A stretch of DNA of 38,185 nt from Ectocarpus siliculosus. Taxonomy: Eukaryota > Sar > Phaeophyceae > Ectocarpales > Ectocarpaceae. The DNA is taken from NCBI GenBank assembly GCA_000310025.1, contig FN648757.1, positions 4,308 through 42,492 of the forward strand, in the 5' to 3' direction. Below are positions 3,857 through 34,028 of this stretch, in pieces. Numbering within the stretch: the stretch's first letter is position 1; the number at the start of each line of letters is the position of its first letter. The notes beneath the pieces were generated by a model that worked only from the letters and a program-made list of their open reading frames with translations, searched no databases and was not told where the DNA came from. The position numbers and the translations under genes are program-made.

Positions 3857-4887
3857 CTTGGAACAAATTGCATACCGTTATCCGAAAGAAGAGTCACCGG
3901 ACAACCCCACAACGCCATGTAGCGGTTGACGAAAATGTTAGCCGTTCCCTTAGCGGAAAATTCCGCCTTGGTAGTGGCATACATATCCGCCCGTCGACTG
4001 AAACGGTCCGTAAACAAAAGTATATATGCATTCCCACGGGACGTGACCGGCAATGGCCCAAAAAAATCGACGCTCACTGCAATACCCGGCCCATTCGGGA
4101 GGGGCAGAGTGAGCGTAGGCCAACGATACGTTTGCCGGGAAGTCTTGCGCGCTTGGCAAATTAAACAATGCCGAAGCCACCAACGAACGGACAAATCCAT
4201 CTCAATCCACCAGAAAAATTGCTCCAACATACGTAAAGTCCGAGCGGTGCCCAGGTGAAAAGACGCGGTGGCGTGACATGCTTGTAGGACCCACGGTCGC
4301 AATAGCATAGGCACGTATATGCGCGGAGTCTTCGAAGGCGGGAGGCGAGTGATACGCCCGCCCGAACTACCGAGAGGCAGTGGGGCAGAATTTCGCACCA
4401 ACAATCGCGTACCATCGTCTGTAGTATGTAGGCATGTTTTAGATGCGAGGGCAACAACATCAGACAACGCCGGCCGTCGCGCACAGGGCAAGCAATCCCA
4501 GAATGTATCCGGCAAAACCGCCGGGGATCCCAAAGACGAACAATGTATAGCCGCGACACACTCACTTTCTGACAGCTGTTCTCGGGTCCAATCGGCATGT
4601 GAGAATGTATGCACACAGTCGCGGAGGTGAGCTTCCTCAGCGGCCGTGGGCGGCACCACGGAAGTCGCAGGGCTAGTACCTGCGGGCGACAACACTGGCG
4701 GCATGAGCGCCGCGGGCGGCGGTGGCGCCGGGGTGGCGGCAGCAGGTGCGGGCGGCGGCGGCTGCAATTCAGCCGGCGCCGAAGAAGGCAGCGGGCCAGA
4801 AGTAGGGCTACCCACGGTTCTCGTAGACCGCGCGGCACGGCTCGACCGGGCCGGCGTTCGAGGAGGTCGCGGCGGTCTGGGCACCAC
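3832..4887 (-). CDS. pol: Gypsy integrase, zinc finger and N-terminal half of the catalytic core
   Basis: This part inserts the cDNA into the host genome. Residues 1-80 are a low-complexity Pro/Ala linker. Around residues 205-245 is the HHCC zinc-binding domain (CHATASFHLG ... LRHCLICQARK). Two of the three catalytic acids follow: Asp in VSVDFFGPL and Asp in LLSDNGMQF. The third (Glu) is in the next ORF at 3140-3856, one frame away, so the core is split. The frame joins the upstream RT/RNase H ORF at about 4890-4925, again by a one-base-deletion-type change. The first codon of the open stretch is GTG and is not a real start. Confidence 0.85.
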   Translation of the reverse strand: MVPRPPRPPRTPARSSRAARSTRTVGSPTSGPLPSSAPAELQPPPPAPAAATPAPPPPAALMPPVLSPAGTSPATSVVPPTAAEEAHLRDCVHTFSHADWTREQLSESECVAAIHCSSLGSPAVLPDTFWDCLPCARRPALSDVVALASKTCLHTTDDGTRLLVRNSAPLPLGSSGGRITRLPPSKTPRIYVPMLLRPWVLQACHATASFHLGTARTLRMLEQFFWWIEMDLSVRWWLRHCLICQARKTSRQTYRWPTLTLPLPNGPGIAVSVDFFGPLPVTSRGNAYILLFTDRFSRRADMYATTKAEFSAKGTANIFVNRYMALWGCPVTLLSDNGMQFVPSCPWLFTG

Positions 4888-6803
4888 AACGGCCCGTGGT
4901 TGTTTCGGAAATAATTGGGACGGCTATGAGCCATGCCCGAGGCCGAATTCGTTCTCGCCCGGGTACGAGAAGAAATCAGAGGGCCACGCGAAAGCGACAG
5001 GGCAGCTGAGGAGGTTCCGACGGTGGACGAGAGAGCCACGTCTGGCTCCGCAGAAACGGAAGCCGGAGGAGGTCCATCGGGCACAGAACTCTCGGGGGCT
5101 GCATCGCAAACGACAGCGAAAACACCAGGCGGCGAAAATTTCGACGAATCCACTACGGAGGAGGGCGACAGAGCCGGCAGGACCATTTGTGGCCCAAAAC
5201 GGCGGAAGTCCCGAAAGTCATTCTCCGTCAGAGGCGCGTGTGCCAACGCGTCTCGTTGATCGTCAATGTCAAGCCCACCCAAGCCGATGTTCGGCGTCGA
5301 ACTAGAGTGATAACTCCGTCCGCACGCACGAATGATATACACGCCCGCGGCGTCATCGACTGCGATACTGGTGTCACCGTGTCTGTCCGCGTCGGTTGCC
5401 GGCAGGGGCAACCGCGAAAGAAAATCCGCATTGGCGTTGGCAGTGCCTTTGCGGTAGACAAGGGTGTAATTGAACGAGGAAAGGAACTCGAGCCAACGTT
5501 GGACGCGGGCGTTGTGTTCACCCACCTTGACGATGCTCTCCAAAGCCTTGTGATCCGAATAAATCAGAAAGTGCGTAGACCAAAAATAACCGCGTAAGCG
5601 TTTAATTGCCCACACGATACTTCCAGTTTCCAAGTCGAGCACTGTCCAATTGCGCTCGGATTCGAGCGTAGCGCGGCTAACGAACAGAATGGGACGGATT
5701 GAACCATCGGCCTGTTCCTGTTCAAGGGCCGCACCAAAACCATCGATACAGGCGTCACAGCAAAGCCGGAGAGGGCGGCTGCCATCTGCGACAGCGTCCC
5801 AATCCGGGAAAGCCAAAACCGGAGGTTCGGACAGTTTCGCCAAGAGTTCTTTGACAGTATCCGCCATAGGCGGCGTAAAACAAAACTTCGCGTCCTTACG
5901 CAAAAGGTCTGTGAGTGGTTTCACGCGCATGGCCAAACCCTTGACGAATTTGCGGTAATACGAAAGCCCACCCAGCAAGGAACGCAGCTTTTTGACGTTG
6001 TTAGGCAGCGGCATTTTTGTGAGGGCTTCGACCTTATCGGCACGAGGACTAACACCCGCAGGGGAGATTGTGTGACCTAAATAAACGGCCTCCTTAGCGC
6101 CGACGCGACTCTTGAAAGGAGAAAGCTTGAGGTTGAACTTGCGCAAACGCTCCAAAAATAGCCGTATGTTGGCGACATGGTGGATGGGGTCGGCGTCAAA
6201 CACAATCACATCATCCAGGTATGCAAGCACATGGTCCAGACCTTTAACCACTTCGTTGATGACCATGGTGAACCACGACGGTGCCACGGAGCTTCCCTGA
6301 GGCATACGGAGCCACTCGAAAAGTTGCGTGGGCGTACAAAACGCCGTAAGCTGAACCGTGTCCTCTTCGACGGTGATTTGGTGGAAAGCGGAGTTAAGAT
6401 CGAAAATGGAAAATACCTTGCCCTTGTACAGGGAATCGATGATGTGGTCAACTCGCGGCTGCGGTTGTTGACAAAGACTGCACAATTTGTTAAGCTTGTT
6501 GTAGTTCACGGTCAAACGCAGATTGCCGTCCTTTTTGGGCATGACAACCAGAGGGCTCGCCCACGGCGATTGCGAGTACTGAATAAGACCGGCAGCAAGG
6601 TATTGATCGAGAATTGCATCGACCTTTTTCTCCACCAGTGGGTTGAGCCTATAGGGACGCGAGGCCAACGGTTTCGTGCCCGGGGGCACTTCCAAACGAA
6701 ACGGTTTCACGGAACAGCAACCGAAATCGGACGGTGACCGCGAAAACACATCCGAAAAGTCACACAGCACATCCGCGAGGCTGTCGAGGCTTCCGGGGTC
6801 CAA
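4161..6803 (-). CDS. pol: Gypsy reverse transcriptase and RNase H
   Basis: This part copies element RNA into cDNA and degrades the RNA strand. RT fingers and palm span about residues 30-290: WASPLVVMPKKDGNLRLTVNY (Asn replaces the more usual Asp of VDY), first catalytic Asp135 in FSIFDLNSAFHQ, RMPQGSSVAPSWF, and YLDD at 195-198. The connection LGHTISPAGVSP ... LLGGLSYYRKF leads to RNase H with Asp350 (LCCDACIDGFGAAL), Glu392 (LDLETGSIVWAI), Asp417 (IYSDHKAL) and Asp460 (ANADFLSRLP). All catalytic residues are present. Coding sense in this frame ends near 4900; the remaining about 245 residues of the open stretch are frame-shifted shadow of the integrase ORF. The true frame is entered from 6707-7303 at about 6800. 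Confidence 0.93.
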   Translation of the reverse strand: MDPGSLDSLADVLCDFSDVFSRSPSDFGCCSVKPFRLEVPPGTKPLASRPYRLNPLVEKKVDAILDQYLAAGLIQYSQSPWASPLVVMPKKDGNLRLTVNYNKLNKLCSLCQQPQPRVDHIIDSLYKGKVFSIFDLNSAFHQITVEEDTVQLTAFCTPTQLFEWLRMPQGSSVAPSWFTMVINEVVKGLDHVLAYLDDVIVFDADPIHHVANIRLFLERLRKFNLKLSPFKSRVGAKEAVYLGHTISPAGVSPRADKVEALTKMPLPNNVKKLRSLLGGLSYYRKFVKGLAMRVKPLTDLLRKDAKFCFTPPMADTVKELLAKLSEPPVLAFPDWDAVADGSRPLRLCCDACIDGFGAALEQEQADGSIRPILFVSRATLESERNWTVLDLETGSIVWAIKRLRGYFWSTHFLIYSDHKALESIVKVGEHNARVQRWLEFLSSFNYTLVYRKGTANANADFLSRLPLPATDADRHGDTSIAVDDAAGVYIIRACGRSYHSSSTPNIGLGGLDIDDQRDALAHAPLTENDFRDFRRFGPQMVLPALSPSSVVDSSKFSPPGVFAVVCDAAPESSVPDGPPPASVSAEPDVALSSTVGTSSAALSLSRGPLISSRTRARTNSASGMAHSRPNYFRNNHGPLWCPDRRDLLERRPGRAVPRGLREPWVALLLARCLLRRRLNCSRRRPHLLPPPRRHRRPRRSCRQCCRPQVLALRLPWCRPRPLRKLTSATVCIHSHMPIGPENSCQKVSVSRLYIVRLWDPRRFCRIHSGIACPVRDGRRCLMLLPSHLKHAYILQTMVRDCWCEILPHCLSVVRAGVSLASRLRRLRAYTCLCYCDRGSYKHVTPPRLFTWAPLGLYVCWSNFSGGLRWICPFVGGFGIV

Positions 6804-7303
6804 CCCGAGTCATGTAAATCAAAAGTCACATCGTGCAAATGTGCAGGCAAACGTTGCCACAACTCGCGAAAACTCACTCGCTGCGCTTCTGAGAGGCGTT
6901 CCAACAGACCCGGTGGCGGCGGTTTCGGCGGCAGTGAGGCCGCGGGGGAATCCGAGATCTCCGGATCCGCAACCGGGATGTTTGAATGCAAAGAATTGAC
7001 GCGAGACGGCGGCCCATCCGCGGAACGGGCTGGCGGCGGAGGGTCACTCAACCCAACACCCTCGGCCGTCTGCGGTGTAGGATCAATCGACGCAAGCGGA
7101 ATCTGCACAAGTGGGGCAGTCGCCACTCCAAGCACCTCACCTGGCTCCAACTCGGCGCACCCTGTCAATGGGATGTGTTGAGGCCCGTCCGAAACAAACG
7201 CGTCCGACGCCGAGAGGGCGCCGTGTTTCGGTAAAAACGTGACAAGATAGTTGCCGGTGAGAGCGGGGGTGCCAGAGTTGCGAACGAGGTTCACCCTCGT
7301 CAA
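6707..7303 (-). CDS. pol: Gypsy polyprotein segment between protease and RT
   Basis: This linker segment continues the polyprotein after the protease. About residues 1-70 (VNLVRNSGTPALTGNYLV ... GCAELEPGEVLGVATAPL) resemble the beta-rich extension seen between protease and RT in many gypsy elements. A Pro-rich spacer follows, then an alpha-helical run (LLERLSEAQRVSFRELWQRLPAHLHD) that normally leads into the RT N-terminus. The RT sequence itself continues one frame away from about 6800, so the last about 30 residues here are out of frame. The ORF starts at a TTG overlapping the TGA that ends the NADAR-protease ORF. A slippery-looking heptamer lies just before (7312-7306). Confidence 0.7.
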   Translation of the reverse strand: MTRVNLVRNSGTPALTGNYLVTFLPKHGALSASDAFVSDGPQHIPLTGCAELEPGEVLGVATAPLVQIPLASIDPTPQTAEGVGLSDPPPPARSADGPPSRVNSLHSNIPVADPEISDSPAASLPPKPPPPGLLERLSEAQRVSFRELWQRLPAHLHDVTFDLHDSGWTPEASTASRMCCVTFRMCFRGHRPISVAVP

Positions 7304-8613
7304 AGTGGGTTTATCGGAAAGGGAGACACCTTCCTGCCGGCGTACCGCAGGAAGTAAGATGCCCCGGGGGCGGAGGGTCCAGCGACATACGCGGAAGCTC
7401 CCGCCGCAAAATCCGATGACAGAGAAAGTTTCTCCATAATGCGTCCACTTGCCGACCGCGTGGGCAAAGTAGTGGACAAACGAGAGTTAAAACGCATCCA
7501 ACTATCACGTCCAAGAAGGAGGGCGTGACCCATAGCGGCAGCTGGGACAACATACACCCACATCGCTAACGAAGCGGTGGCACTATCACCATAAAAAAAT
7601 TGAACGGACAGCCGCACGGATGAGGTGGTTTCAAGGGCATTGCCAGAGCCGAAACCACCCCACTGCCGAACGGGCACCGAACGACGACTGTGGACGGATG
7701 CAGCTCCTGACGCCTCCATGGCTTCAAGGAAAGCATCACTAATCAAAGATGAAGGTGAGCCCGAGTCCAAAAGGGCTACACCAGGCGCTGTACACACGGC
7801 TCCGGTACCACTATGAACGCGGACTCGCGTCGTAGAGGTATCGCAATCTACTAAAACATCACCGCTCACCAAATCTGGGCCGTGTTCCGCCAATAGCGGC
7901 GGTGGGGAAGCGGCGGCTTCGCGAAAAGCAGCAGAGGCAACATGCAGCACCTGTTTCGAGTGGTCCGCGGGCGTGTTGGCTGGCACGTCCAGCGGGCCGC
8001 GCGCGTCCTCGGGCGAGGAATCATTGACCGAAGAGTCCTCACCCGGGGGCGCAATTTCGTGGATAGTGGGACACACGGGAGCAGGTTGCCCCGAGTGTTC
8101 AGGGCGTAAAGGCTTATCGGGTTCGACCGGGCGCACACGCAGGAGCGTGCGCGTCGCAACATGCGCTTTGCCCAAGAGGTTTTTACCAGTCCACTTGGAG
8201 GGCGACGCCGCACGCGGATCGGAGGCATCAACACCAATGCCCCACAATCCGTCATAAGGACTGGCCTCCGCTATCTGTCTATCACCCGTAGCCAACAAAC
8301 GTTCACGCGCATCAGCATTTTGGGCGAATTTTGCATACAAAAGCGAAAAGACAACATCCTCGCGCCGGAGTTCCCATAGAGCATGGTCAAAACCGCGTAC
8401 CTTGCGACCAAGGGACTTGTGTTCTCTCGGGTCGGAGGTAGCCATGATTTTGGCATAAGCGGCATCATCGCCGAAAATGCGGGCTTTCTCCGCCATCATG
8501 AACTGTTCGCCGCACACGTAGCCAATGCCATGAACCGAGAACTCACAGGGCGTCCAGTTAGACAGAAAGGACGGCGGTTTCCAAAAGAGGAAAACCTCAT
8601 CGTTATAGTATCC
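7300..8613 (-). CDS. pol: NADAR (YbiA-like) domain fused to gypsy aspartic protease
   Basis: Coding sense in this frame begins near 8613 and runs to a TGA at 7302-7300. The first about 160 residues form a NADAR domain (Pfam PF08719 family, which includes the E. coli N-glycosidase YbiA and domains predicted to act on NAD/ADP-ribose derivatives). Family landmarks in order are VFLFWKPPSFLSNW, CGEQFMMAEKARIFGD, ATSDPREHKSLGRKVRGFD, LYAKFAQNADARERLLATG, ASPYDGLWGIGVDASDP and WTGKNLLGKAH. After a Pro/Ser-rich linker of about 85 residues comes a retropepsin-like protease with DSG in ALLDSGSPSSLIS (near 7767) and the later HALLLGRDSW motif. The domain is contiguous in frame with the protease, so it is part of the polyprotein, not a flanking gene. 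What it does for the element is unknown. Confidence 0.88.
   Translation of the reverse strand, partial: GYYNDEVFLFWKPPSFLSNWTPCEFSVHGIGYVCGEQFMMAEKARIFGDDAAYAKIMATSDPREHKSLGRKVRGFDHALWELRREDVVFSLLYAKFAQNADARERLLATGDRQIAEASPYDGLWGIGVDASDPRAASPSKWTGKNLLGKAHVATRTLLRVRPVEPDKPLRPEHSGQPAPVCPTIHEIAPPGEDSSVNDSSPEDARGPLDVPANTPADHSKQVLHVASAAFREAAASPPPLLAEHGPDLVSGDVLVDCDTSTTRVRVHSGTGAVCTAPGVALLDSGSPSSLISDAFLEAMEASGAASVHSRRSVPVRQWGGFGSGNALETTSSVRLSVQFFYGDSATASLAMWVYVVPAAAMGHALLLGRDSWMRFNSRLSTTLPTRSASGRIMEKLSLSSDFAAGASAYVAGPSAPGASYFLRYAGRKVSPFPINPL
7306..7312 (-). promoter_or_regulatory. Candidate -1 frameshift site (A AAC CCA)
   Basis: In the NADAR-protease frame the codons ATA AAC CCA CTT TGA end the ORF. 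The heptamer A AAC CCA fits the X XXY YYZ pattern, and a -1 slip there gives AAA CCC ACT TTG, exactly the frame of the next pol segment. YYY=CCC is not a usual eukaryotic slip codon, so a fixed one-base deletion is the simpler alternative. Confidence 0.35.
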
Positions 8614-9440
8614 CTGACAACCGTCAAAAACAGGGCCTGCCGCGCGGGTGCGCTTACCTTCCCCGAAGAAATATCATCAAGAGAAATGGCACCGGCAACC
8701 GGCAGGACAATCTGGGTGCCGCCCGAAGGCGGGCCGGATTGTGGGTTACGAGGAGAGGCAGGCAAGAGCGGTGAACCAGCCGCAGAAGCGTGCGAAACCA
8801 AGCGGTCTACGCGGGCGTTTTCGCGCAAAACGTCGGCGTAGGCCTGTTCATTAAAAGCGGCCTTCATCGCGGGCGCTCGACCAAGATGGTCAGCGGCCGC
8901 GGGAGGCTCGGGACCGCTATTTCGTGACAAAGAACATGAATCTTCCGATTTGGGGAAACCGTTACTTGCGCTCGACAACGGCGGTGCAGTCAGCACCGTG
9001 CAACATTGGTGCTCCGTAGAGGAACGTCGCGAGGGGTCCGGAGGGGGCGCGGTGGGTACAAGCGTACTCGAGCCACCGCGGCGGGCCTGCGGTTGTCCCG
9101 AAGGTTCCTGTGCTCCAACGTGGTTGACGAGACCACCCAGAGCCGCCGAAACGGTGGGAGAAGCCGGAGCCATGCCTCCGGGGGGCGTAGACATCGGGGC
9201 GAGCGTCCGTGAGACACCCGAAGTCTGGTCGGTCCCTCGCCCACACCACAAGACTGTATTCGGCGCCGACGAGTCACGTCGGTCATCCAACACAGGATGT
9301 GATGAGGCGTGAGGCGACATCTGAGAAATAAAAGGTTGGAAAACTAACATAGGCGAGCCCGAAGGCGTCTGTGTGATACGAACATCTTGGGAACTAGTCG
9401 TACAGCGCACACCCGGTGCTGTTGATGGCGATGTGTGCAA
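8496..9440 (-). CDS. pol: Gypsy polyprotein linker downstream of Gag
   Basis: About 260 residues of low-complexity Ser/Pro/Gly/Ala sequence in the same frame as the Gag ORF that ends at TGA 9461-9459. It contains short helical stretches (MKAAFNEQAYADVLRENARVD) and leads into SLDDISSGK at 8658. Beyond that point the frame changes to that of the NADAR-protease segment; the 54 residues from 8657 to 8496 are therefore probably not translated in this frame. No known domain was recognised. Its position suggests a spacer between Gag and the NADAR domain, reached by stop-codon readthrough or by re-initiation. Confidence 0.55.
   Translation of the reverse strand: MHTSPSTAPGVRCTTSSQDVRITQTPSGSPMLVFQPFISQMSPHASSHPVLDDRRDSSAPNTVLWCGRGTDQTSGVSRTLAPMSTPPGGMAPASPTVSAALGGLVNHVGAQEPSGQPQARRGGSSTLVPTAPPPDPSRRSSTEHQCCTVLTAPPLSSASNGFPKSEDSCSLSRNSGPEPPAAADHLGRAPAMKAAFNEQAYADVLRENARVDRLVSHASAAGSPLLPASPRNPQSGPPSGGTQIVLPVAGAISLDDISSGKVSAPARQALFLTVVRDTITMRFSSFGNRRPFCLTGRPVSSRFMALATCAANSS
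8614..8657 (-). other. 44-nt intron-like segment joining linker and NADAR frames
   Basis: On the minus strand the segment begins GTAAGC after ...GGGGAAG and ends TTGTCAG before GGATAC, with a T-rich tract and a TTGAC branch-like motif. Removing it joins codon AAG to codon GGA in phase 0 and moves exactly from the linker frame to the NADAR frame. A one-base deletion near here would have the same effect, and an intron of this size is very small, so splicing is unproven. Confidence 0.35.
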
Positions 9441-9458
9441 AAGGCCGTCACCGGCGTG

Positions 9459-9461
9459 TCA
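9459..9461 (-). promoter_or_regulatory. In-frame TGA between Gag and pol linker (possible readthrough)
   Basis: Gag ends GGT AAC TGA CAC, and the same frame stays open for about 260 further codons. TGA followed by C is the leakiest stop context known in eukaryotes, and readthrough is one established way to make Gag-Pol. No downstream stimulating structure was examined in detail. Confidence 0.35.
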
Positions 9462-10922
9462 GTTACCCCGCGTGTGCGGGGTTCCGGAACTTCGAGTGTA
9501 CGGAGTTCCAGGTACGGCTGCGGGCGCCGGGGTTGCGGCGGCACCTACGGCCGGCGCCGGAGGTGGTGCGTGTGTAGTTGAGTTACGTTTCCCAGAGCGG
9601 CCGCCGTCGCCCTGTGTATGGCCGCTGCTCTTACCCGGGCCATTTTTATTGTGTACACGCGGGCGGTGCGACTTCATGCGGCTTTGCCAACGTTGAAAAA
9701 CCTGAACGCTATCAGCATGCGAAGCAATGGCCGGGTTTAAGAGGCCGGTGTAATTGGTGAAAGCATACGGGCAAGTTTTGAGGCTGTGGCCCGCCTGCCC
9801 GCAGTTGAGACATTGGCCAGAAAATCGCCGCAGAGCTTGCGCTCGGTCGGCAGGGGTCAACAGCGGTGTAAACAAAGGGGGGTCCATCTTAGCCATACTT
9901 GCCACAACGCTGTACGCAAAGCCGTAGTGACCACGCAACGGCCAGCAGTCGCAGTCCTGCTCGAATGGACATGTGTTATCGGACGGCACAGGGTCGATAG
10001 CCATCACCCCGGCGGGAAATTGTGTTCCCGGCGACCACGCGGACGGCTGCAGCGGCGGCGGCGGTGGCGGCCGCTGCTGCCCCACGGTCGCAGTCATGGC
10101 TCGTGTGGGCGCCGATGAAAACCCAAAGGTGACAGTGGTAAAATAACGGTCGCCGTTGCAGGCGGACGAGTGTTTTAGTGCTTCCTCCGACGACAAAGCA
10201 TCCCAAAGCTCATCCTGATCACTAAACACCACGTTGTGGAGAATCTTCTCTTTCAACGGCAAAGACGAGAGAACATTTGGGTACTGCTCCAACAAAGCGT
10301 CCCGAAGCGCACGCTGTACCATGCGCAGATCCGGCGCGAAAGCCCTATGCGAGGCCAACTCCGACATTGCTAACGCCTTATACTTCATGACGAATTTGCT
10401 GTACGGCGTGCCGTTGGGCACACCAAAATCCTGCAGCTTGTCGATGCCCCGGTTGAAACCTTTCGGTTCCCACTCATCCGCAAGCAGTTTGAGCAACCGA
10501 CGGTATGCCGAAGGCCCCGACTTGTCCTTCGTCTCCAAGAAACGTTTCACCTGAGAAAACGAAGAATCCACCAATTCGCGGGTTGCGGCATTGGCGCCTT
10601 GAGGGTTCGAAATGGCCATGAGGACACGCTTGTAAAAGGGGGCATACCATCCAGCCACCCATGAGGGCGACTTGATGATCTGCTTGCCGGAGGGATCGGC
10701 GGCCGACAGGATTTCAGCCAACACACTTTCGGTCGAACGAGCGAAGGCAGAAAATTCTGACGGGGGAAGCGGCACTACCGCATACAATTCGTTCACTTTT
10801 AAGTTTGCCGTATCCTTTGCGCACGCTGAGGGCGTACACCTCTGCGGCGGCAACGGCGTTTGCATCAAGCTGTGCCTGCGCCGTGCGTGCACCGGCAGAC
10901 GACAGGGGCAGTGCCCGGTCAT
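9459..10922 (-). CDS. gag: Gypsy Gag, C-terminal capsid-like part and zinc knuckle
   Basis: Coding sense in this frame starts near 10805 (ANLKVNELYAVVPLPP). A helical capsid-like region follows (VLMAISNP, VKRFLETKDKSG, RRLLKLLADEWEPKGF, KFVMKYKALAMSELASH, VQRALRDALLEQYP). After a Pro-rich spacer comes one canonical CCHC knuckle, CLNCGQAGHSLKTC at residues 371-384 (about 9812-9771), then a basic, Gly/Lys/Arg-rich tail (KNGPGKSSGHTQG) suited to nucleic-acid binding. The first about 38 residues of the open stretch are out-of-frame shadow of the Gag middle ORF. The ORF ends at TGA 9461-9459, with pol continuing in the same frame. The frame joint with the Gag middle ORF, at about 10800-10840, is the only one in the element of the one-base-insertion type. 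Confidence 0.85.
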   Translation of the reverse strand: MTGHCPCRLPVHARRRHSLMQTPLPPQRCTPSACAKDTANLKVNELYAVVPLPPSEFSAFARSTESVLAEILSAADPSGKQIIKSPSWVAGWYAPFYKRVLMAISNPQGANAATRELVDSSFSQVKRFLETKDKSGPSAYRRLLKLLADEWEPKGFNRGIDKLQDFGVPNGTPYSKFVMKYKALAMSELASHRAFAPDLRMVQRALRDALLEQYPNVLSSLPLKEKILHNVVFSDQDELWDALSSEEALKHSSACNGDRYFTTVTFGFSSAPTRAMTATVGQQRPPPPPPLQPSAWSPGTQFPAGVMAIDPVPSDNTCPFEQDCDCWPLRGHYGFAYSVVASMAKMDPPLFTPLLTPADRAQALRRFSGQCLNCGQAGHSLKTCPYAFTNYTGLLNPAIASHADSVQVFQRWQSRMKSHRPRVHNKNGPGKSSGHTQGDGGRSGKRNSTTHAPPPAPAVGAAATPAPAAVPGTPYTRSSGTPHTRGN

Positions 10923-14855: not shown

Positions 14856-15154
14856 TGTTATGGAGGAACAGAGAAATAAAAGAGGGAAGGGAGCAAGCTC
14901 GTTGCTCCTGGCTTCGGGTACTCACAGTTGTTGTTTGATCTCTAGTTTTAGCCTTCTTAGACCAGGTCCGCTCAGCGCCCACTCGGAGAGTGAGGGAGCG
15001 GGGCTGGGAATTCGATCTTCCTTCAATTTACGTCAATACCCCTCAACGTCGCCAAATATCCATATCCAAAGAAAATTCAAAATATCCAATAAGCGCTCAT
15101 ACAACGTTCATGAAACGCTCGTATGCAAATAAATACACTAGTTGCTCCATTACA
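14856..15154 (-). repeat. 5' LTR of the gypsy element (299 bp)
   Basis: On the minus strand it runs from TGTAATGGAG at 15154 to CTCCATAACA at 14856, giving TG...CA ends with a short imperfect inverted repeat. A nearly identical 298-bp copy in the opposite orientation lies at 16127-16424 as a solo LTR, which fixes both edges. The flanks 14852-14855 (ACAA) and 15155-15158 (ATCT) do not match each other. This fits the end of a longer element rather than a solo LTR. Confidence 0.7.
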
Positions 15155-16122: not shown

Positions 16123-16428
16123 ATTGTGTAATGGAGCAACTAGTGTATTTGCATTGTACGAGTGTTTCATGAACGTTGTATGAGCGCTTATTGGATATTT
16201 TGAATTTTCTTTGGATATGGATATTTGGCGACGTTGAGGGGTATTGACGTAAATTGAAGGAAGATCGAATTCCCAGCCCCGCTCCCTCACTCTCCGAGTG
16301 GGCGCTGAGCGGACCTGGTCTAAGAAGGCTAAAACTAGAGATCAAACAACAACTGTGAGTACCCGAAGCCAGGAGCAACGAGCTTGCTCCCTTCCCTCTT
16401 TTATTTCTCTGTTCCTCCATAACAATTG
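16123..16428 (+). mobile_element. Solo LTR of the gypsy family with 4-bp target duplication
   Basis: The LTR copy (16127-16424, TGTAATGGAG...CTCCATAACA) is flanked on both sides by ATTG (16123-16126 and 16425-16428). It is oriented opposite to the gypsy element at 3187-15154. This fits an independent insertion followed by LTR-LTR recombination. Confidence 0.75.
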
Positions 16429-21869: not shown

Positions 21870-22120
21870 TGTTGAGGGATAGTTGGGGAGTGAACCCGGT
21901 GGGGCTCGCAACACCTCGTGATCTCGCTACAATTACAATCCTCTACTCAACCATCAATTCATTCGTGAGTTCCTCGCTAGAACTCGTCATAGTCTACATG
22001 TTACGTTTTCCCAAACGTCACATATCACACCGCATGTACGTATCATTGCATACAGCAATCATACAGCTGCATCTATTCTACTGAACACATCCTACAGCAG
22101 TAATGCGCTGTATTTCAACA
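21870..22120 (-). repeat. Probable 3' LTR of the copia element (251 bp)
   Basis: On the minus strand it starts TGTTGAAATACAG at 22120, immediately after a purine-rich CATGGGGGCG (polypurine tract, 22130-22121), and ends CCCTCAACA at 21870. The TGTTGA/TCAACA ends are inverted. No second copy is visible to confirm the edges. Confidence 0.6.
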
Positions 22121-22173
22121 CGCCCCCATGATGGGTGCAATGTTACGTGCACTTCAACAACCCCAGTGTTGTT

Positions 22174-22727
22174 NNNNNNNNNNNNNNNNNNNNNNNNNNN
22201 NNNNNNNNNNNNNNNNNNNNNNNNNNNNNNNNNNNNNNNNNNNNNNNNNNNNNNNNNNNNNNNNNNNNNNNNNNNNNNNNNNNNNNNNNNNNNNNNNNNN
22301 NNNNNNNNNNNNNNNNNNNNNNNNNNNNNNNNNNNNNNNNNNNNNNNNNNNNNNNNNNNNNNNNNNNNNNNNNNNNNNNNNNNNNNNNNNNNNNNNNNNN
22401 NNNNNNNNNNNNNNNNNNNNNNNNNNNNNNNNNNNNNNNNNNNNNNNNNNNNNNNNNNNNNNNNNNNNNNNNNNNNNNNNNNNNNNNNNNNNNNNNNNNN
22501 NNNNNNNNNNNNNNNNNNNNNNNNNNNNNNNNNNNNNNNNNNNNNNNNNNNNNNNNNNNNNNNNNNNNNNNNNNNNNNNNNNNNNNNNNNNNNNNNNNNN
22601 NNNNNNNNNNNNNNNNNNNNNNNNNNNNNNNNNNNNNNNNNNNNNNNNNNNNNNNNNNNNNNNNNNNNNNNNNNNNNNNNNNNNNNNNNNNNNNNNNNNN
22701 NNNNNNNNNNNNNNNNNNNNNNNNNNN
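22174..22727. other. Assembly gap (554 N)
   Basis: A run of N interrupts the element between the end of RNase H and the 3' untranslated region. Open frames crossing it are artefacts. Confidence 0.98.
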
Positions 22728-24160
22728 GATCCTCCATGTTCTTGAACCAATGTCCGCAGTTTGACGAATTGGACACGTTCCAGATGCTTGGTCAATATGT
22801 CCGCAAGCTGCTCCTCACTCCTCACGAACTTTAGCACAATATTTCCCTGGTTGACGTTTTGGCGAAGTAGCCAGTAGCTCGTGCTGATGAACTTGCTGCG
22901 GCCTCGAAACATGGAGTTTCCTGCTGTGCTCAGCGCTCCCGTTGAATCCGAATGAAGCGGGATGTTGCCGCATGGAAATCCAAGTTCCGATAGTACACCT
23001 TGCAGATAAATTGCTTCCCTCGCTGCTGTAGCTATCGCGATGATCTCGGCATGTACACTTGATTGTGCTATTTGCTTCTGCAGAGTTGATGCTGCACTGA
23101 TGACGCCTCCCGCCAGTATGAAGATATATCCAGTAGAAGAACGCTTCTGAAGTCGCTCGCCCGATCCAGCGAAGTTCGCGTCACAGTAGCACTTCAGGTT
23201 CCATTTCCCTCTCCTGAACTTTAGTGGCATATCCGGGAATCCTCGAAGGTATCGCAGCACTCTCTTTGCTCCGACCATATGTTGATTGGTAGGCTTGTTT
23301 ATTCCTCTGCACAGGATCATGACGGCATATCCAATCTCCCATCTCGTCGTGTTAGTCAAGAAGAGGAGACTTCCGACTATTCCTTGGTAGAGTTTCTTGT
23401 CCTCGTCACTTAAATATATAGCATTCTCCGGCTCTTGTTCAATTTCACGCCCGCATCCTGGAGTCGCCGCTGATTGGCAGTCCTTCATTTGATACTTGTC
23501 CAGTATGTTCATCACATATTTGCGTTGGCTCACTGCAATGTCTCCGTCGCTCTGAGAATTCTCCATGCCTAGTAGTAGTTCCGCTGGTCCTCCGTCCGTC
23601 ATCTTGAATTTGTCCGATAGTTGTTTCTTCAAATCTTGAACCACGCTCGGTGTCTTTCCAGCTAGTGTGCAGTCGTCCACGTACACACATAGTATCGCGT
23701 ATGTCGGTCCAGCACCGTACATGTATACGCACGGGTCGCTCAGTAGAGCAGTAAACCCGATGTCTTTTATCCCTTTGGCAAATGCGTTGCCGAAGTTCCG
23801 AGGGCTCTGCTTCAATCCGTATAAGCTTTTCTTGAGCTTCATCACTAGCGGTAGTCCCGTCACTTCATCCATTATTTCGTATCCTTTAGCTTGACGAACA
23901 TACACTTCTTCCACTTTGCTCTGAAGAAATGCAGTCACCACGTCCATCGTTTCCACAACGTATCCTCTTTCCGCTGCAATTGCCATTAAGACCAGCTGTG
24001 AGCTAAATCTACTCACAGGTGCGTAGGTTTCTCCACAGTCGATTCCATGCCGTTGTCCCCAGCCTTGGACGATAAGTCTTGCCTTTATAACTCCGGTTGC
24101 TTTCATCTTGTATAACCATCTCGATCCAATGGGTTTAGCTCCAGGAGGTAGACTCTGAAT
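22728..24160 (-). CDS. pol: Copia reverse transcriptase and RNase H, C-terminus in gap
   Basis: Last enzymes of the copia polyprotein. Counting from 24106, the RT has the copia signatures CGETYAPVSRFSS, Asp55 in ETMDVVTAFLQ, LKKSLYGLKQSPRNF and YVDD at 142-145. RNase H follows with Asp308 (CYCDANFAGSGE), Glu353 (SSVHAEIIAIATAAREAIYL) and Asp386 (LHSDSTGAL). The characteristic end DILTKHLERVQFVKLR is present just before the gap, so only a few residues and the stop are missing. Coding sense enters this frame near 24160 (PPGAKPIGSRWLYKMK), one base off from the upstream integrase frame. All catalytic residues are intact. Confidence 0.93.
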
Positions 24161-26934
24161 TGGACTAGATCCGCCACATCATGATCTTTCAGGCTTCTCA
24201 TCTCCTTGTCCATAGCTGCTTTCCATTGATTGGCATCCACAGACTTCATGGCTTCTTGATATGTAGTGGGTACAGGTATAGATGCTGGCGGCCGGACAGG
24301 TTCTCCGACTGATGGATTCTTGATTCTTATATCTTGGTCTTGGTCTTGGTCTTGGTCGACAAAAGTCGCTAGTTTATTCCATGGCGATAGCCTCCGTAGC
24401 TCCGCTTGCTGCCGTTTGTTGTTTGTTGATTGTTGAATATCAGTATTCCTTCCGCTGCTTCGCAAGTGCATGCGGGGTATAATTCCTTGTTCTTGTTCTT
24501 GTTCTTGTTGTCCTTCTTCCTCGTAGTAGTCCTCCTCATATTTCGAATTATCTTTCACTTCCCCCTCGTTTCCGGGTATGTCGACATCCGCGGAAACCGA
24601 TAATTCGTTTTCCGGTTCGTCGTCGCGTAGTTCCTCAATGGTCGGTATGACCGGCGGCATGGCCGCGTCCATTGGTTCGATGAAAGTCACGTTTCTCGAT
24701 GGAACGATGCGCTTGGTATGCGGGTTATAAATCCGATAAGCGTTGCTGTTGGGGCTGTACCCAACCAGTTTTCCGGGCCAAGCTCGATTTGCAAGCTTAG
24801 ACTTGAACGTTTTCACGTGTACGAACGCTGACGATCCGATAACCCGTAGATGTCGTAGCGAAGCTTGTTTTCCAAACATCCGGTAGTAAGGCGTCTCGTT
24901 GTTCAGATTGTTCAGATGTACATGCGGCAGGCGATTCGTGATGTGTACCGCCGTGCAGCACAACTCGCCCCATAGATACTCCGGTAGTTGTCCGCCATGC
25001 ATTAAGCATCGAACGATGTTCATGAGCGTCCGTCCAGCACGCTCGCTTATCCCTTTTTGTTGCGGTGTTGCCGGTGCCGTAAATTCTTGGACGATTCCAA
25101 TTGTTTTGCAGAACTTCTTGTAGTACTCAGCTGTGTACTCTCCTCCACAGTCACTCCGAAGCCGCTCCAGTCGAAAACCATTCGGTATGACGATGTCGTC
25201 AATAAATCGTTCCAGTGTGTCGATGGCTTCGTCCTTGGTCCTTATCAGGTACACGACATTCATTCTGGAATATTCATCCGTGAATTTGCAGACATAGTTG
25301 AATCCGCCCTTTGCAGGTGGCGAAATTGGTCCCAGCAGATCCGTGTAAACCCGTTGACATGGTTGAACGGCAGTGTGCTGTGCCGTTTTGGGGTGCTTCC
25401 TTTGGGTGCTCTTCTGAAGTTTGCAGGTCTCGCACGGGTCCAAGTTGTCCGTGAGCTTAACTCCAGTTTCTTTAATGCGCGCTGCTGCCTCAATGATGCC
25501 CTTGTGGCAATGCGCCAAACGCCGATGCCAAAGATTGTATGGCTCCGCGCGTGGGGCAGCAATATATGCTTTCTCGTACGCGTTCATATTTTCTTCGTGG
25601 ATCCTCTTTCTCCGTTCACGTTGGCTTGTGTCAAGTCGCACATCCAGGAAATACAGCGTCCCCACTTCTCGTAACACCAGGGCGATTCTTGATTCATCTC
25701 TCGAAGTAGTCGGCAACTCGATTCGAGGTTCATCTGACATGATCGTATTCGCACCTTTCTTCTGAGCTGTTCCAGTAGAAAACAGGTGCCGCCCTAGCCC
25801 TGGAACCACTGTGCACTTGAACCGCACTCTCCTGTCGTTTCCTTCTTCATCCTTGGCGAAAACGTTGATGATGCCTTCACTGATCCCTTCAAGCTCAATT
25901 CCTCCAGCACCAATGATCTTCGTTGGCGTAGTGATGTACGTGAAGTCATCCAATATGTTTTCCAGATCCGGTAACAGGTCGCTGTCCAAGTAGTGGCCCG
26001 ATGCTCCACTATCCACCAGTAAATTAAATTTTCCTTGATCGAATTCCACATAAGCAGCTCGTTGTGCTGCTATCTCCATGCGGCTGACGCTTGGGTATCC
26101 AAGGTTCCCATTATAACCTTCAACCACTGTCTCTTCAGTTGGTTGTGACGTAGTTCGGACATTCCGGTTGTGAGCAAACCCCCTCGTCTCCTCATGAGCT
26201 GTTGCAGCTCTGTTGATAGTCCGATGATCACCGTTGTACATTCTTGGGTTGAAAGTCCAAGTACCATCCCTGTCTTGGACTTGGTGGCGAACAGGGTTAG
26301 CCTGTCTCGCCCCTTGTGTTGCTTCTGTTATCGGCCCTCCTCGTCCTGTTGATGCATGTCGTGTGCCCATACCATCTTGTTGTTGGGCACGACACTCTGA
26401 ATCGTCATGCAGGTGGGTGTTGTGCAACGAACACCACTTCCGTTGCCTTTGTTGTTGCTGCCGTTGCGTAGGACGGTCTGTCACTTGTCGTACAGGTCGG
26501 CTGGATCTCGATCGCTGCTGATAACCGTTGTTGGATCCTCGAGGCCCATTGTTATTCCGCGATCGCTGTTGAAAACAGTATCCATTTCGCCTGTTTCCGC
26601 CGCTGCTGCTGTAGTTCCGTGTAGGAGCTCGGCCACTTCCTGAATACAGCTCCGGACAGTTCCGTTGAACATGCCCCAAACGGTGGCAGTTGTAGCATTC
26701 CACCGCATCTCTGTTGTATGAAGGCGTCGAATAACCTCCATCTCGGCGTCTTGGCTGACGAGGTGCTTCCGTTATGGCTGAATACCCCGCGTCACGAGCA
26801 GAACTCCTCCTATCCTTAAATGTCATGATGGCGCCATCTGTACGGTTTCGGTTGTACCACATGTTCCGCGCCGTTTGAGTGATGTCTGCCAGATCGTTGT
26901 ACTCATTCCTCGAACTAGCATGGTACCGAATCAA
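24103..26934 (-). CDS. pol: Copia Gag end, zinc knuckle, protease and integrase
   Basis: 943 codons; sense in this frame actually begins at about 27050 (ITHVWHLAEQLRFIGG). Residues 80-93 are a CCHC knuckle (CYNCHRLGHVQRNC), and a second CxxxH...C cluster (WCSLHNTHLHDDSEC) lies at 167-181. Protease: DSG at 308-310 in LLVDSGASGHYL. Integrase: zinc finger His470, His475, Cys501 and Cys504; catalytic Asp532 (YTDLLGPI), Asp595 (RLRSDCGGEY) and Glu631 (GISERAGRTL); then the GKLVGYS motif near 721. The spacer to RT has slippage-prone QEQEQEQ and DQDQDQDQD runs. The last about 20 residues are out of frame; RT continues one frame away. The nominal TTG start is not a real start. Confidence 0.93.
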   Translation of the reverse strand: MIRYHASSRNEYNDLADITQTARNMWYNRNRTDGAIMTFKDRRSSARDAGYSAITEAPRQPRRRDGGYSTPSYNRDAVECYNCHRLGHVQRNCPELYSGSGRAPTRNYSSSGGNRRNGYCFQQRSRNNNGPRGSNNGYQQRSRSSRPVRQVTDRPTQRQQQQRQRKWCSLHNTHLHDDSECRAQQQDGMGTRHASTGRGGPITEATQGARQANPVRHQVQDRDGTWTFNPRMYNGDHRTINRAATAHEETRGFAHNRNVRTTSQPTEETVVEGYNGNLGYPSVSRMEIAAQRAAYVEFDQGKFNLLVDSGASGHYLDSDLLPDLENILDDFTYITTPTKIIGAGGIELEGISEGIINVFAKDEEGNDRRVRFKCTVVPGLGRHLFSTGTAQKKGANTIMSDEPRIELPTTSRDESRIALVLREVGTLYFLDVRLDTSQRERRKRIHEENMNAYEKAYIAAPRAEPYNLWHRRLAHCHKGIIEAAARIKETGVKLTDNLDPCETCKLQKSTQRKHPKTAQHTAVQPCQRVYTDLLGPISPPAKGGFNYVCKFTDEYSRMNVVYLIRTKDEAIDTLERFIDDIVIPNGFRLERLRSDCGGEYTAEYYKKFCKTIGIVQEFTAPATPQQKGISERAGRTLMNIVRCLMHGGQLPEYLWGELCCTAVHITNRLPHVHLNNLNNETPYYRMFGKQASLRHLRVIGSSAFVHVKTFKSKLANRAWPGKLVGYSPNSNAYRIYNPHTKRIVPSRNVTFIEPMDAAMPPVIPTIEELRDDEPENELSVSADVDIPGNEGEVKDNSKYEEDYYEEEGQQEQEQEQGIIPRMHLRSSGRNTDIQQSTNNKRQQAELRRLSPWNKLATFVDQDQDQDQDIRIKNPSVGEPVRPPASIPVPTTYQEAMKSVDANQWKAAMDKEMRSLKDHDVADLVQFRVYLLELNPLDRDGYTR

Positions 26935-27869
26935 GTGGTACTCCGCTGGTAGTCCTTGTAGTATGATGTCCCCAAGTTTCTCATCGGTAACGGTCCCTCC
27001 GATGAAGCGAAGTTGCTCCGCGAGATGCCAGACATGGGTGATGAATATGTCTCAGTACCAGTTCGCATGGTAGCTGATTCCAATTCTTGTTCCAGGTTTC
27101 TCCGCCGGTGCTCATCGGCAGGTTGAAATTTAGATTCCAGCTCCTCCCAAACAGCTAGTCCGCTGCCACTCGATTCATCCACAGGCGCGTGTCGCCGTAA
27201 CACATATTTAGCTGGCCCCATCAATACGTGATAGAGGATATTGGATAGTTGAGAATCAGTGTCCTCAAAATCGTCCAGCTCTTGCTGGTTCACGATAGAA
27301 CGGGAACGTCTGATTGATGATGACCGTAGAGCTGTTCGTCTCGTTCGTGATTCCTGTTGGCCTTGCGAAGAACGCTTCCGTGGTAGTTGCTCCTTGTACA
27401 GACGAACGATGGTCTCAGCTTGAACAGCGAGTCGTTCAGCAGTATCCGATGCGTCTTTCATCGCTCGTGTGATGGTCTTCTGTTCTTCGTCAGCATCAGT
27501 AAGCACTTTGCGGGCGAGTGCCGCTCTTTCTTGAGCTTCCACAGATGCTGACTCCGCTGAACGTAGCTGCTGTAGAGCTTCTTGGTATGCAGAGTCTTGG
27601 TCATCACGGTCTCCAGTGTCTTCGTGATCTTCATGTTCTTGGTCTCCACCATCTTCATCTCCATCATCTTGATCACCGTCATCATTTTCGTCGTGTAGTT
27701 CATAGATAGGAGTAGGGCGCCAGTTCTCCCCTAGTAGTTTGTTGATGTTGGGCCGATACAAGGCCAATGTCCTCCTTGTCGTGTACTTCCACTCTGGATA
27801 CTCCGTATCCCTGCCGCTGAACTTATGCAGGCTCCTCAGCAGTTGGAAGTGCTTGCTGTCTTGGGCCAT
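26931..27869 (-). CDS. gag: Copia Gag, N-terminal part
   Basis: The likely start is ATG 27869 (MAQDSKHFQLLRSLHKFSGRD), giving a usual copia-gag beginning with YPEWKYTTRRTLALY. Then come an unusual acidic tract (DENDDGDQDDGDEDGGDQEH), a charged helical region (AQERAALARKVLTDADEEQ) and the family-like SNILYHVLMGPAKYVLRR and AVWEELESKFQPADEHRRRN. The frame stays open upstream through the 21-bp repeats to beyond 28035, so an upstream start is possible. Sense leaves this frame at about 27045; the last about 40 residues are out of frame. The rest of Gag, with the zinc knuckle, is in the next ORF. Confidence 0.85.
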   Translation of the reverse strand: MAQDSKHFQLLRSLHKFSGRDTEYPEWKYTTRRTLALYRPNINKLLGENWRPTPIYELHDENDDGDQDDGDEDGGDQEHEDHEDTGDRDDQDSAYQEALQQLRSAESASVEAQERAALARKVLTDADEEQKTITRAMKDASDTAERLAVQAETIVRLYKEQLPRKRSSQGQQESRTRRTALRSSSIRRSRSIVNQQELDDFEDTDSQLSNILYHVLMGPAKYVLRRHAPVDESSGSGLAVWEELESKFQPADEHRRRNLEQELESATMRTGTETYSSPMSGISRSNFASSEGPLPMRNLGTSYYKDYQRSTT

Positions 27870-28174: not shown

Positions 28175-28343
28175 TTCCAGCGACACCCTATTTGTCGAAG
28201 TGCTGTCCAAGTTACCAGCTTCCTTCAGGGTTCGGGGAAAACTCTTTTCGAACAGCTCTCTCGATATTTTCCAGCGACACCCTATTTGTCGAAGTGCTGT
28301 CCACGTTACCAGCTTGCCTTCAGGGTTCGGGGAAATTCCTATG
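28175..28343. repeat. 94-bp repeat unit, two copies
   Basis: TTCCAGCGACACCCTATTTG begins at 28175 and again at 28269. Similarity runs through TTACCAGCTTCCTTCAGGG to GGTTCGGGGAAA. Related, more diverged copies lie at 34511-34650, so this is a dispersed family. On the minus strand the copies fall where a 5' LTR of the copia element would be expected. Confidence 0.75.
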
Positions 28344-28545
28344 ACGTCGAACTGCTCCTTTTCTTGTCTCGAACAGTTCTTGTCTTCCACCGCGATCCTA
28401 CACGGGTGGCCAACAGACCGGGTTGTAAGGGCACTTTTGCCAACCTGAATCGAGATTTATTTTGGCACGAGTTGCAACCTCCCCACCTCGGGTAATCCTT
28501 GCAATGCAATGATGGCCAGGTTGTGCAAGGTATACATTTCTTGGT

Positions 28546-28980
28546 GGTTGGTGCGCTATTACAAGTCGGATAGGAGGCAGGTTGCCGATGGTAGTACAAG
28601 GTGTACCCTTTCTTGGTGGTTGGTGCGCTGCTAACAAGCTGGATTGGGGTCAAGCTGTCGATGGCGGCGCAAGGTGTACCATTTCTTGTGGTTGGTGCAC
28701 TGCTTACAAGCTGGACAGCGGGCAGGCTGCCGATGGCAGCGCAAGGTGGACCCTTTCTTGGAGGTTGGCGCGCCATGCACAAGTCGGTTAGGGGGGAGGT
28801 TGCCTATGATACGACAAGGTGTACCCTTTTTTGCAGGTTGGCGCGCTTCGCACAAGCCAGTTGGGGGGCAGGTTGCCGGTAATCGTGCAAGGTGTACCCT
28901 CTCTTGCAAGTTGGCGCGTTGCGCACAAGCCGGTAGGGGGCAGGTTGCGTATTGCAATGCGTACCCTCTCATAGAGGTTG
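28546..28980. repeat. Minisatellite, about 73-bp units, six copies
   Basis: Units begin GGTTGG(T/C)GCGC at 28546, 28618, 28690, 28763, 28836 and 28909, and a degenerate one follows at 28976. Each contains a CACAAG/ACAAG, GGCAGGTTGCC and GCAAGGTGTACCCT block. A partial unit precedes from about 28500. There are no unique spacers, so it is not a CRISPR array. Open frames here are products of the repeat. Confidence 0.85.
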
Positions 28981-32237: not shown

Positions 32238-33730
32238 CTACATAGTGCGATAGAAGTGAGGGGGGGGGGGAGAGTGGGTGAGACGCAATATATGAAGACG
32301 CACATGCACATCCCTTCGCTCTGCTATGCATACTACTGGTGACCTCTTCGTTTCGCATCAGTGGCGCGGCATGGGGGGACCCGCTGCGACCGCCTTTTCT
32401 CAGTTGTTGTTGTTGCCTTGACATTGAAAGAAAAAAACTTTCCGATCTCTGACACGCCATATTTCTCAGGAGTTTACTCGGTATTCTGTATTTTACGGCC
32501 AACAATGTTTTCAAAGGGGTACATCGAAATCCCGGATGAAAAAGGAAGAGAAAAAAAGGGTGGTGGGAAAAACAAATATGGCGCAGAGGAGAATCGAATC
32601 GACTGATCTCACAGCACAGCAGTTACATAAGATACCACGCCCCCCTGGACCAATTTCCAAAGCCTGATTATTCCACACCAGAACGAGTGGCGAGGCCGGA
32701 AATGGCTGCATTGGAACTGTCTCGTGGAGAGTTTTTTCGAAAAAATATTGTTTGATTTTCGGAATCGTCTTCGTCGTGGAACATGATAGGTTGAAACTTG
32801 GTCAAGGGGGTGTGGTATCTTGTGCAACCTACGGTTACCGTTAATTCTTGCTTTGAACACGATATAGTTGCATGCGTGTGAACGACCTGTGTCAATCGAG
32901 CAACCCATGTAAAACAATTGGGTGTTATGAGCGCTGGGCGTTGGTTCAAGCATGTGGACGGTCGACGCGGTCGATGCTATGCATGTGTGTGGAAAGGTCA
33001 GATACAGCAGACATGCGGTGTTGTTACTGTTTCGTACGTGCTGTTGAAGAAAACGAGCCCCCCCCCCCCCCAAAAAAAACGATGAAAATAACGAAGTGCC
33101 TACCCGCCCTCCAAAAAGCTCTTTTATGAGGCTGGGCGCTTACTGACGCCTCCGGCATAATCCCCGCTCTGTACATGGTGAGGAAGAGCCGCATACACGC
33201 AGTAGGTCGAGAGCCGTTGGGTGTGCAGGACCAACTACTGGTGTCTGAGCGTACTTGCATTTACAGCAAGTGGAGACTTCGCGCCCTTCCCAACGGGGAC
33301 ATATGCGTAGGGATACACAACTTACACAACACACAATATTCCCTAATTCATCCTTCTATTGCTACCATCCAGATGTAACTGGAGGGGAATCGCTTACCTA
33401 GTCAGCAACTGCTGCCGGAATGTCGCTCTCTCTTCTCCACGCGCGCCGTGTAGAAGCTCGTCTTGCCTCTCTACAGCAGCAGGGTCGTGCGGCGGGTTTA
33501 GCTCGCGGTGGTTGCTGTGCCCCGAGTTCGAGCGTCTAGAGATATCATAGCTGTTTGCCTTGGTTACGAAAGGAATGACACCAGTTTAGTCGCTATTCGT
33601 CTTGGCATGCTGCGGCCTCTGGTCGTCTGTGTCAACGCTAGCTAGATCGTCACGCGAGGGCGATGCAGGGCCAAACAAAGCCATGCAAACAATTGGGGGC
33701 TCGATGGTTCGGATGCCCCCCAACCCCGTC
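32238..33730. other. No gene firmly recognised
   Basis: About 1.5 kb. A further minus-strand exon-like stretch (MRLFLTMYRAGIMPEA, about 33200-33150) ends at a good donor, TCA|GTAAGC. A C-run followed by A8 lies at 33058-33080. Nothing else could be assigned. Confidence 0.35.
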
Positions 33731-34028
33731 TTCCCATCTGTCTGGCGATCCATAACAATATCTGTCTGAGAGCTTGTCTTGTTGTTGCACCCTGCACCAT
33801 GTAGCTGATACACACATCGCACTCGTGAATCCCCGCACACCCTCACACAAAAGCCTATATTGAATTGTGTGTGCGTTTCTTCCCATCTGTCTGGCGATCC
33901 ATAACGATACCTGTCTGAGAGCTTGTCTTGTTGTTGCACCCTGCACCATGTAGCTGGTACACACATAGCGCTCGTGAATCCCCGCACACCCTCACACAAA
34001 AGCCCATATTGAATGGTGTATGCGTTCA
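33731..34028. repeat. 149-bp tandem duplication
   Basis: Two copies, 33731-33879 and 33880-34028, begin TTCCCATCTGTCTGGCGATC and differ at only a few positions. High identity suggests a recent duplication. Confidence 0.9.

Follow-up and report, generated by a model that had tools for sequence, protein, structure and literature searches.

Why would a retrotransposon of the Ty3/gypsy type carry a NADAR domain, related to E. coli YbiA, in its polyprotein? The question is raised by a 38,185-nucleotide stretch of contig FN648757.1 of the brown alga Ectocarpus siliculosus (positions 4,308 to 42,492, forward strand; assembly GCA_000310025.1), hereafter the window, which contains a copy of an element with the order Gag-NADAR-protease-reverse transcriptase-RNase H-integrase. 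A NADAR fusion in Ectocarpus Gypsy elements was published in 2025 (PMC12477816), i.e. the fusion is already known. In the present analysis NADAR was, with near certainty, a constitutive and selected domain of one Ty3/gypsy lineage of the alga.

NADAR domain in the polyprotein

The domain is located on the minus strand at window positions 8137–8586, and matched the Pfam profile PF08719 with 155.3 bits (E-value 2.2e-45, cut-off 35.1), residues 30–179 of the encoded protein P0001 covering profile positions 2–163 of 163. P0001 is a 457-amino-acid open frame (7300–8673, minus strand), which holds NADAR and then, in the same frame, a retropepsin-like aspartic protease (7489–7893, minus strand) with the motif LLDSGSP at 7753–7773. 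No Pfam protease match was obtained for the protease of the window copy, which was identified by motif and fold only; in Foldseek, it matched the protease of feline immunodeficiency virus with a probability of 0.99–1.00 but with E-values of only 1.3e-2 to 3.8e-2. A previous sequence-only reading of the window had proposed a YbiA-like NADAR domain in one open frame continuous with a DSG protease, between Gag and protease, had suggested the PF08719 profile check now performed, and had allowed that such fusions might have been noted before; all of this was borne out. It left the strand unstated, and in the one plus-strand frame of 8137–8613 that was translated, the motifs it quoted were not present.

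Occurrence across the genome

The 189.5-Mb assembly containing the window gave at least 150 PF08719 matches (the best 150 of 230 candidates), all of them over the cut-off. A search with a 337-amino-acid reverse transcriptase (RT) query gave 120 match rows, from the best 119 of 592 candidates, one element on contig C53 accounting for two rows. In 104 of these 120 rows, a NADAR match was located on the same strand no more than 8 kb upstream, and the NADAR-to-RT distance was 1290–1560 bases in 100 of the 104 (median 1374.5). With the addition of nine weaker NADAR places, hand-picked for the spacing count, the number of RT rows with an upstream NADAR was 107. Conversely, at least 103 of the 150 NADAR matches were followed downstream by an RT match from the 120 rows. 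Thirteen RT rows were without a NADAR match within 8 kb, at least one of which (C396:1207) is at a contig end. When the copies were sorted by eye into six subfamilies, F1–F6, with the window copy in F1, every one of them had the domain as the first part of Pol, ahead of the protease.

A chance match, or a host gene inserted just once into an element in decay, could be imagined from the window copy, which is itself decayed, but the profile score, the at least 150 matches in the genome, the fixed spacing to RT and the selection across subfamilies described below practically rule it out. Sister copies without the domain, which the sequence-only reading would have taken as a sign of such an insertion, were not the rule, as seen from the 13 of 120 RT rows; still, a sister lineage that is less closely related and lacks NADAR seems to exist, judging from the sequences of P0200 and P0204, neither of which showed the domain. 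The protease of P0204 is the same as that of the element (36% identity over 197 amino acids). P0210 is a further related protein with this protease.

Two NADAR matches (G000:C3:3913787 and G000:C489:435177, where G000 denotes the assembly) lie in implausibly long open frames of 10,887 and 6,365 amino acids, which runs of N may have caused.

Active site and predicted fold

Fifty NADAR loci, with five overlapping duplicates counted once, gave 46 distinct loci including the window. Using the active-site roles described for the Phytophthora enzyme as reference (PMC11543638), equivalents of E43, K50, E125, D130 and W133 were present in 46 of 46 loci, and this set includes the catalytic Glu and Lys (E43, K50) and the last-strand Glu (E125) by which the YbiA subfamily is defined (PMC11543638, PMC11125620). 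Equivalents of K75, R79, W89 and R93 were present in 45 loci, the exception being L053, where the reading is disturbed.

In the AlphaFold2 model of P0001, NADAR was predicted confidently (blocks with predicted local distance difference test values, pLDDT, of 92–98), and Foldseek returned two PDB matches at E ≤0.001, i.e. 8bau, the NADAR of Phytophthora nicotianae with ADP-ribose (E-value 1.9e-12, template modelling (TM) score 0.76 by target length), and 2b3w, E. coli YbiA. Both share fold and active-site residues with the element domain, with identities of 30% and 27% upon structural alignment, although neither is part of a retroelement. The element domain differs from the P. nicotianae NADAR in having Phe at the position of Y84 (45 loci) and in not keeping the equivalent of D86. 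On the basis of residues and model, the element NADAR is probably a catalytically competent ADP-ribosyl hydrolase. The Phytophthora enzyme hydrolyses ADP-ribosyl-guanine, and those NADAR/YbiA proteins of E. coli and phages that have been tested do likewise in vitro (PMC11543638, PMC11125620).

Selection on NADAR

Between subfamilies, NADAR was near saturation at synonymous sites (proportion of synonymous differences, pS, 0.72–0.88), with an amino-acid identity of 53–80%. The protease was 51–81% and the linker between NADAR and protease 21–57% identical among the four subfamilies compared, F2 and F4 having been missed by the motif anchor. Within subfamilies, the ratio of nonsynonymous to synonymous differences (pN/pS) of NADAR was 0.27 in F1, 0.17 in F2, 0.70 in F3, 0.38 in F4 and 0.17 in F5, and that of RT was 0.28 in F2, 0.12 in F3 (two copies) and 0.14 in F5. 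The variable linker from the Gag stop to NADAR (window 8587–9458, minus strand) was neutral-like within subfamilies, with a pN/pS of 0.79–1.04 over its last 600 nt. The ratios were calculated position-wise without gaps for five of the six subfamilies, skipping pairs that differed at more than 25% of codons as misaligned. Because the within-subfamily pairs are not independent and the counts are small, it is the between-subfamily result which carries the selection argument.

Three points detract from this argument. F3, with its ratio of 0.70, is an exception among the five subfamilies, and the protease is an erratic yardstick, its pN/pS ranging from 0.16 to 1.27 (F1 0.17, F2 0.16, F3 0.83, F4 0.59, F5 1.27). 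Furthermore, the residue counts used 46 of the 150 loci, chosen because they ranked highest or had long frames, a choice biased towards conserved copies. Nevertheless, as far as sequence comparison can tell, NADAR is under purifying selection. Both the past selection proposed in the sequence-only reading and the comparison with the YbiA active site that it recommended gave agreeing results, with NADAR ratios of 0.17–0.38 in four of five subfamilies. An enzyme has been kept with its active site intact while the copies diverged until hardly any synonymous similarity was left, which suggests that the element probably needs it.

Gag-Pol junction

How NADAR would come to be made together with Gag is indicated by the junction between the two frames. 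In the window, the Gag frame ends with TGA followed by C (stop at 9459–9461, minus strand), a candidate programmed readthrough stop. The junction was identified in 41 of the 46 distinct loci, representing all six subfamilies, and read TGA then C in all 41, whereas it was not found in the other five. In 29 of the 41 junctions the TGA shares the NADAR frame, and Gag and Pol are separated there by a single stop in a readthrough context. The frame before the TGA was open to the edge of the examined stretch (56–208 codons) in F1–F5 (one copy each, two for F3), and the single F6 copy had two stops 41 codons before the TGA. A zinc knuckle was found in this frame in the F1 and F2 copies; in the other subfamilies either the motif was not found or the examined stretch was too short for it. 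Codons 1–386 after the stop in L040 (F5) and 1–220 in L036 (F2) contained no Met, which counts against a separate start of Pol. The constancy and frame of TGA-C suggest that Gag-Pol is likely made by UGA readthrough.

A stem beginning 3–8 bases after the stop together with a second stem, i.e. a pseudoknot, could be drawn in 11 of 11 copies scored, and in eight of them its score, which was of our own making, was equalled by 0–14 of 200 shuffled sequences. Readthrough is made less certain by the 12 of 41 junctions with the TGA out of the NADAR frame, as indels would give, by three F2 copies in which 68–91 of 200 shuffles equalled the pseudoknot score, and by slight covariation (two-sided change in one of eight consensus pairs). 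Also, plain folding after the stop was no better than that of shuffled sequences (z-scores +0.82 to -1.46), and a strong RNA structure at this site was thus not supported by this method.

A same-frame TGA then C at the Gag-Pol junction has been described for the fission-yeast Ty3/gypsy elements Tj1, Tosmo1-3 and Tcry1 (PMC10085805), which share this stop with the NADAR elements, but have a fixed context, GAA TGA CT, that the latter lack; NADAR is not mentioned for them in the part of that article available to us. The terms “stop codon”, “readthrough” and “frameshift” are absent from the main text of PMC12477816, and no algal paper on stop readthrough at gag-pol of LTR (long terminal repeat) retrotransposons was found by title in the literature searched. 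The UGA junction allows a simple reporter test.

Short motifs around SQDVR and VLTAPL were seen by eye to recur in the linker, and could be processing sites.

Relatives of the element and a cellular NADAR gene

The closest named proteins to P0001 were from Ectocarpus sp. CCAP 1310/34 (88% identity over 56% and 90% over 25% of P0001). Proteins from ENA were ca. 41–45% identical over up to 96% of P0001, thus spanning NADAR and protease, and therefore the fusion exists in other assemblies. The published NADAR-bearing lineage of Ectocarpus sp. 7 (e.g. Gypsy-12_Ec32), which we compared by description, has a bacterial-like NADAR and a putative C-terminal chromodomain after the integrase (PMC12477816). 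In four C-terminal pieces of the present elements, there was no Pfam chromodomain match at E ≤1, some pieces ending short of the Pol end and the HMMER filters dropping most weak matches. Elsewhere among the proteins retrieved, P0152, with 71 member sequences, has a macro domain fused to NADAR.

Besides the element copies, the genome contains a cellular NADAR gene (G000:C24:2125206–2127003; L062) of several exons with an N-terminal Cys/His motif, PGCSRPCFIEPNGRVHDYCGVTH. Likely orthologues are the free-standing proteins P0019 of Ectocarpus sp. 13, with 83–95% identity over three cleanly aligned exons, and P0027 of E. fasciculatus. A search with the N-terminal motif returned two proteins, one being the query, and no partner domain. 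This gene, which provides a host-side handle on the question, is not mentioned in PMC12477816 as far as its accessible text goes. Apart from that article, no report of NADAR or YbiA with a retrotransposon, Gypsy or a brown alga was found in the literature searched. Hence the TGA-C junction and the cellular relative are what is added here, neither found in print in that literature and neither certainly new.

In an unrooted tree of 60 rows, element and cellular NADARs were placed together against all other rows (support 100/97), the latter being bacterial or fungal where named. The cellular clade (100/100) was nested, with a weakly supported position, in the element lineages, and monophyly of the element NADARs without the cellular gene was neither shown nor rejected (approximately unbiased test, p 0.281). 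The topology fits a single uptake of the domain from bacteria and a later transfer, either from host to element or from element to host. In a quicker tree of 87 rows, the ENA fusion P0145, a partial sequence on a long branch, grouped with a metagenome protein and not with the element clade (support 80). Unless this placement is an artefact, it speaks against a common origin of all such fusions. The 60-row tree included 27 and the quicker tree 45 of 114 metagenome or bacterial rows. From the former, P0131 (a duplicate), P0145, P0149, P0150 and five long rows labelled “FUNG”, a label which also covered bacterial proteins, were left out; P0148 was too short and is in neither tree. P0007, labelled with the metagenome rows, grouped with the elements in the 60-row tree and was counted with them.

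Possible function

From place, conservation, active-site residues, predicted fold and the TGA-C junction, all read from sequence, we infer readthrough, packaging, activity and substrate as follows. A minority of the ribosomes reaching the UGA-C that closes Gag would read through it, giving a minor Gag-NADAR-PR-RT-IN product (PR, protease; IN, integrase), the Gag part of which would pack NADAR into the particle beside the RNA. The protease would then free NADAR, and the enzyme would remove ADP-ribose, probably from guanine, in the template RNA or the nascent single-stranded cDNA, so that the template stays readable. NADAR would thus be an ADP-ribosyl hydrolase that is packaged into particles, acts on nucleic acid of the element and is placed like the betaretroviral dUTPase, a reading to which we give a probability of roughly 0.45 from sequence, model and analogy. 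The choice of element nucleic acid as substrate is, taken separately, tentative.

The betaretroviral dUTPase has its slot between nucleocapsid and protease. It is made next to the nucleocapsid in the Gag-protease polyprotein (PMC4531489), and a similar place is thus already used by a nucleotide-hygiene enzyme, which guards reverse transcription against bad bases, as is here proposed for NADAR (PMC4531489). The likeness is one of place, not kinship, since the dUTPase is an unrelated enzyme with other chemistry and is expressed by frameshifting. NADARs of nidoviruses and other RNA viruses are also embedded in a polyprotein, that of the replicase (PMC9503650; BFVD matches), although their carriers have an RNA polymerase and are not retroelements.

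Some of the evidence speaks against a hydrolase acting on nucleic acid. No match to PF14487 (DarT), which could have been a partner, was found in the genome, and PF00644 (PARP) gave only four short and weak matches, so that a source of ADP-ribosyl-guanine in the host was not identified. Moreover, NADARs differ in substrate (PMC11125620), and viral ones have been argued to act on other forms of ADP-ribose (PMC9503650). If NADAR does clean nucleic acid, reversible base ADP-ribosylation, in the literature consulted mainly a theme of bacterial toxin-antitoxin systems, would matter for eukaryotic reverse transcription. The fullest form of the idea, in which NADAR would be a nucleic-acid de-ADP-ribosylase and counterpart of the dUTPase, guanine ADP-ribosylation would hinder eukaryotic reverse transcription, and the host NADAR gene would be donor or tamed copy, is doubtful.

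Countering ADP-ribosylation, sanitising nucleotides and modifying RNA, the roles put forward in the sequence-only reading, were inferred there and keep that standing. The first of them could take the form of counter-defence, with NADAR stripping PARP-type ADP-ribose, attached by the host, from Gag, other element proteins or host proteins. The four PARP-family exon matches would supply the modifying enzyme, but these are the short and weak ones above, the measured activity of NADARs is on guanine ADP-ribose (PMC11543638, PMC11125620), and nothing was encountered on PARP-based defence in brown algae, although no literature search was aimed at it; we regard this role as rather unlikely. NADAR could also process soluble metabolites or RNA ends, i.e. 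low-molecular ADP-ribose derivatives, intermediates of the riboflavin pathway or the by-products left by RNA repair during reverse transcription. Riboflavin intermediates are substrates of YbiA, a link of NADARs to RNA repair has been described (PMC9503650, PMC11543638), and processing of an RNA intermediate was suggested in PMC12477816; yet the place inside Gag-Pol would imply that the domain works in the particle and not in the cytosol, and this role, too, appears improbable.

Very unlikely is a reader of ADP-ribose which, without catalysis, would bind ADP-ribosylated chromatin or proteins and guide particles or integration. Chromatin readers do occur in families from all four Ectocarpus Gypsy lineages (PMC12477816), but the catalytic Glu, Lys and Glu retained in every locus compared go beyond the need of binding alone, and the position before the protease is far from the integrase.

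Other features of the window

The remaining parts of the window copy are all on the minus strand. Gag is represented by a CCHC zinc knuckle of the nucleocapsid (9768–9815; CLNCGQAGHSLKTC in P0005), with a weak Pfam match (E-value 0.06–0.11). Downstream of the protease are the reverse transcriptase (6066–6539; RVT_1, E-value 3.6e-28), RNase H (5472–5780; RT_RNaseH, 1.5e-28) and the integrase zinc-binding domain with a partial core (3862–4314; Integrase_H2C2, 2.3e-14; rve, 4.2e-6), the core scoring 27.4 bits, under the cut-off of 32.6, over profile positions 3–79 of 102. The order protease-RT-RNase H-integrase, with the protease placed by motif and fold only, is that of Ty3/gypsy elements. The copy is decayed, because the frame changes between the Gag, NADAR-protease, RT and integrase pieces and part of the integrase core is missing.

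A 299-bp LTR-like sequence with TG...CA ends, TGTAATGGAG...CTCCATAACA, at 14856–15154 (minus strand) is the probable 5′ LTR. Self-comparison gave no direct LTR pair within the window, and the contig to the left of it reads N. An inverted copy, 98% identical, is located at 16127–16424 on the plus strand, and may be a solo LTR or belong to another element.

Beyond the broken integrase end, a minus-strand frame at 1456–2799 had weak copia-type Gag and zinc-knuckle matches below the Pfam cut-offs, and is perhaps a second insertion. Pieces of a Ty1/copia element are located at 22154–27051 on the minus strand (RVT_2, E-value 3.3e-52, integrase core, SH3-like domain and zinc knuckle). The GC percentage was 21.5 at 22001–23000 and 44.9–64.8 in the other kilobases. 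Self-comparison also revealed local tandem or near-tandem repeats at 28175–28980 and 33729–34026.
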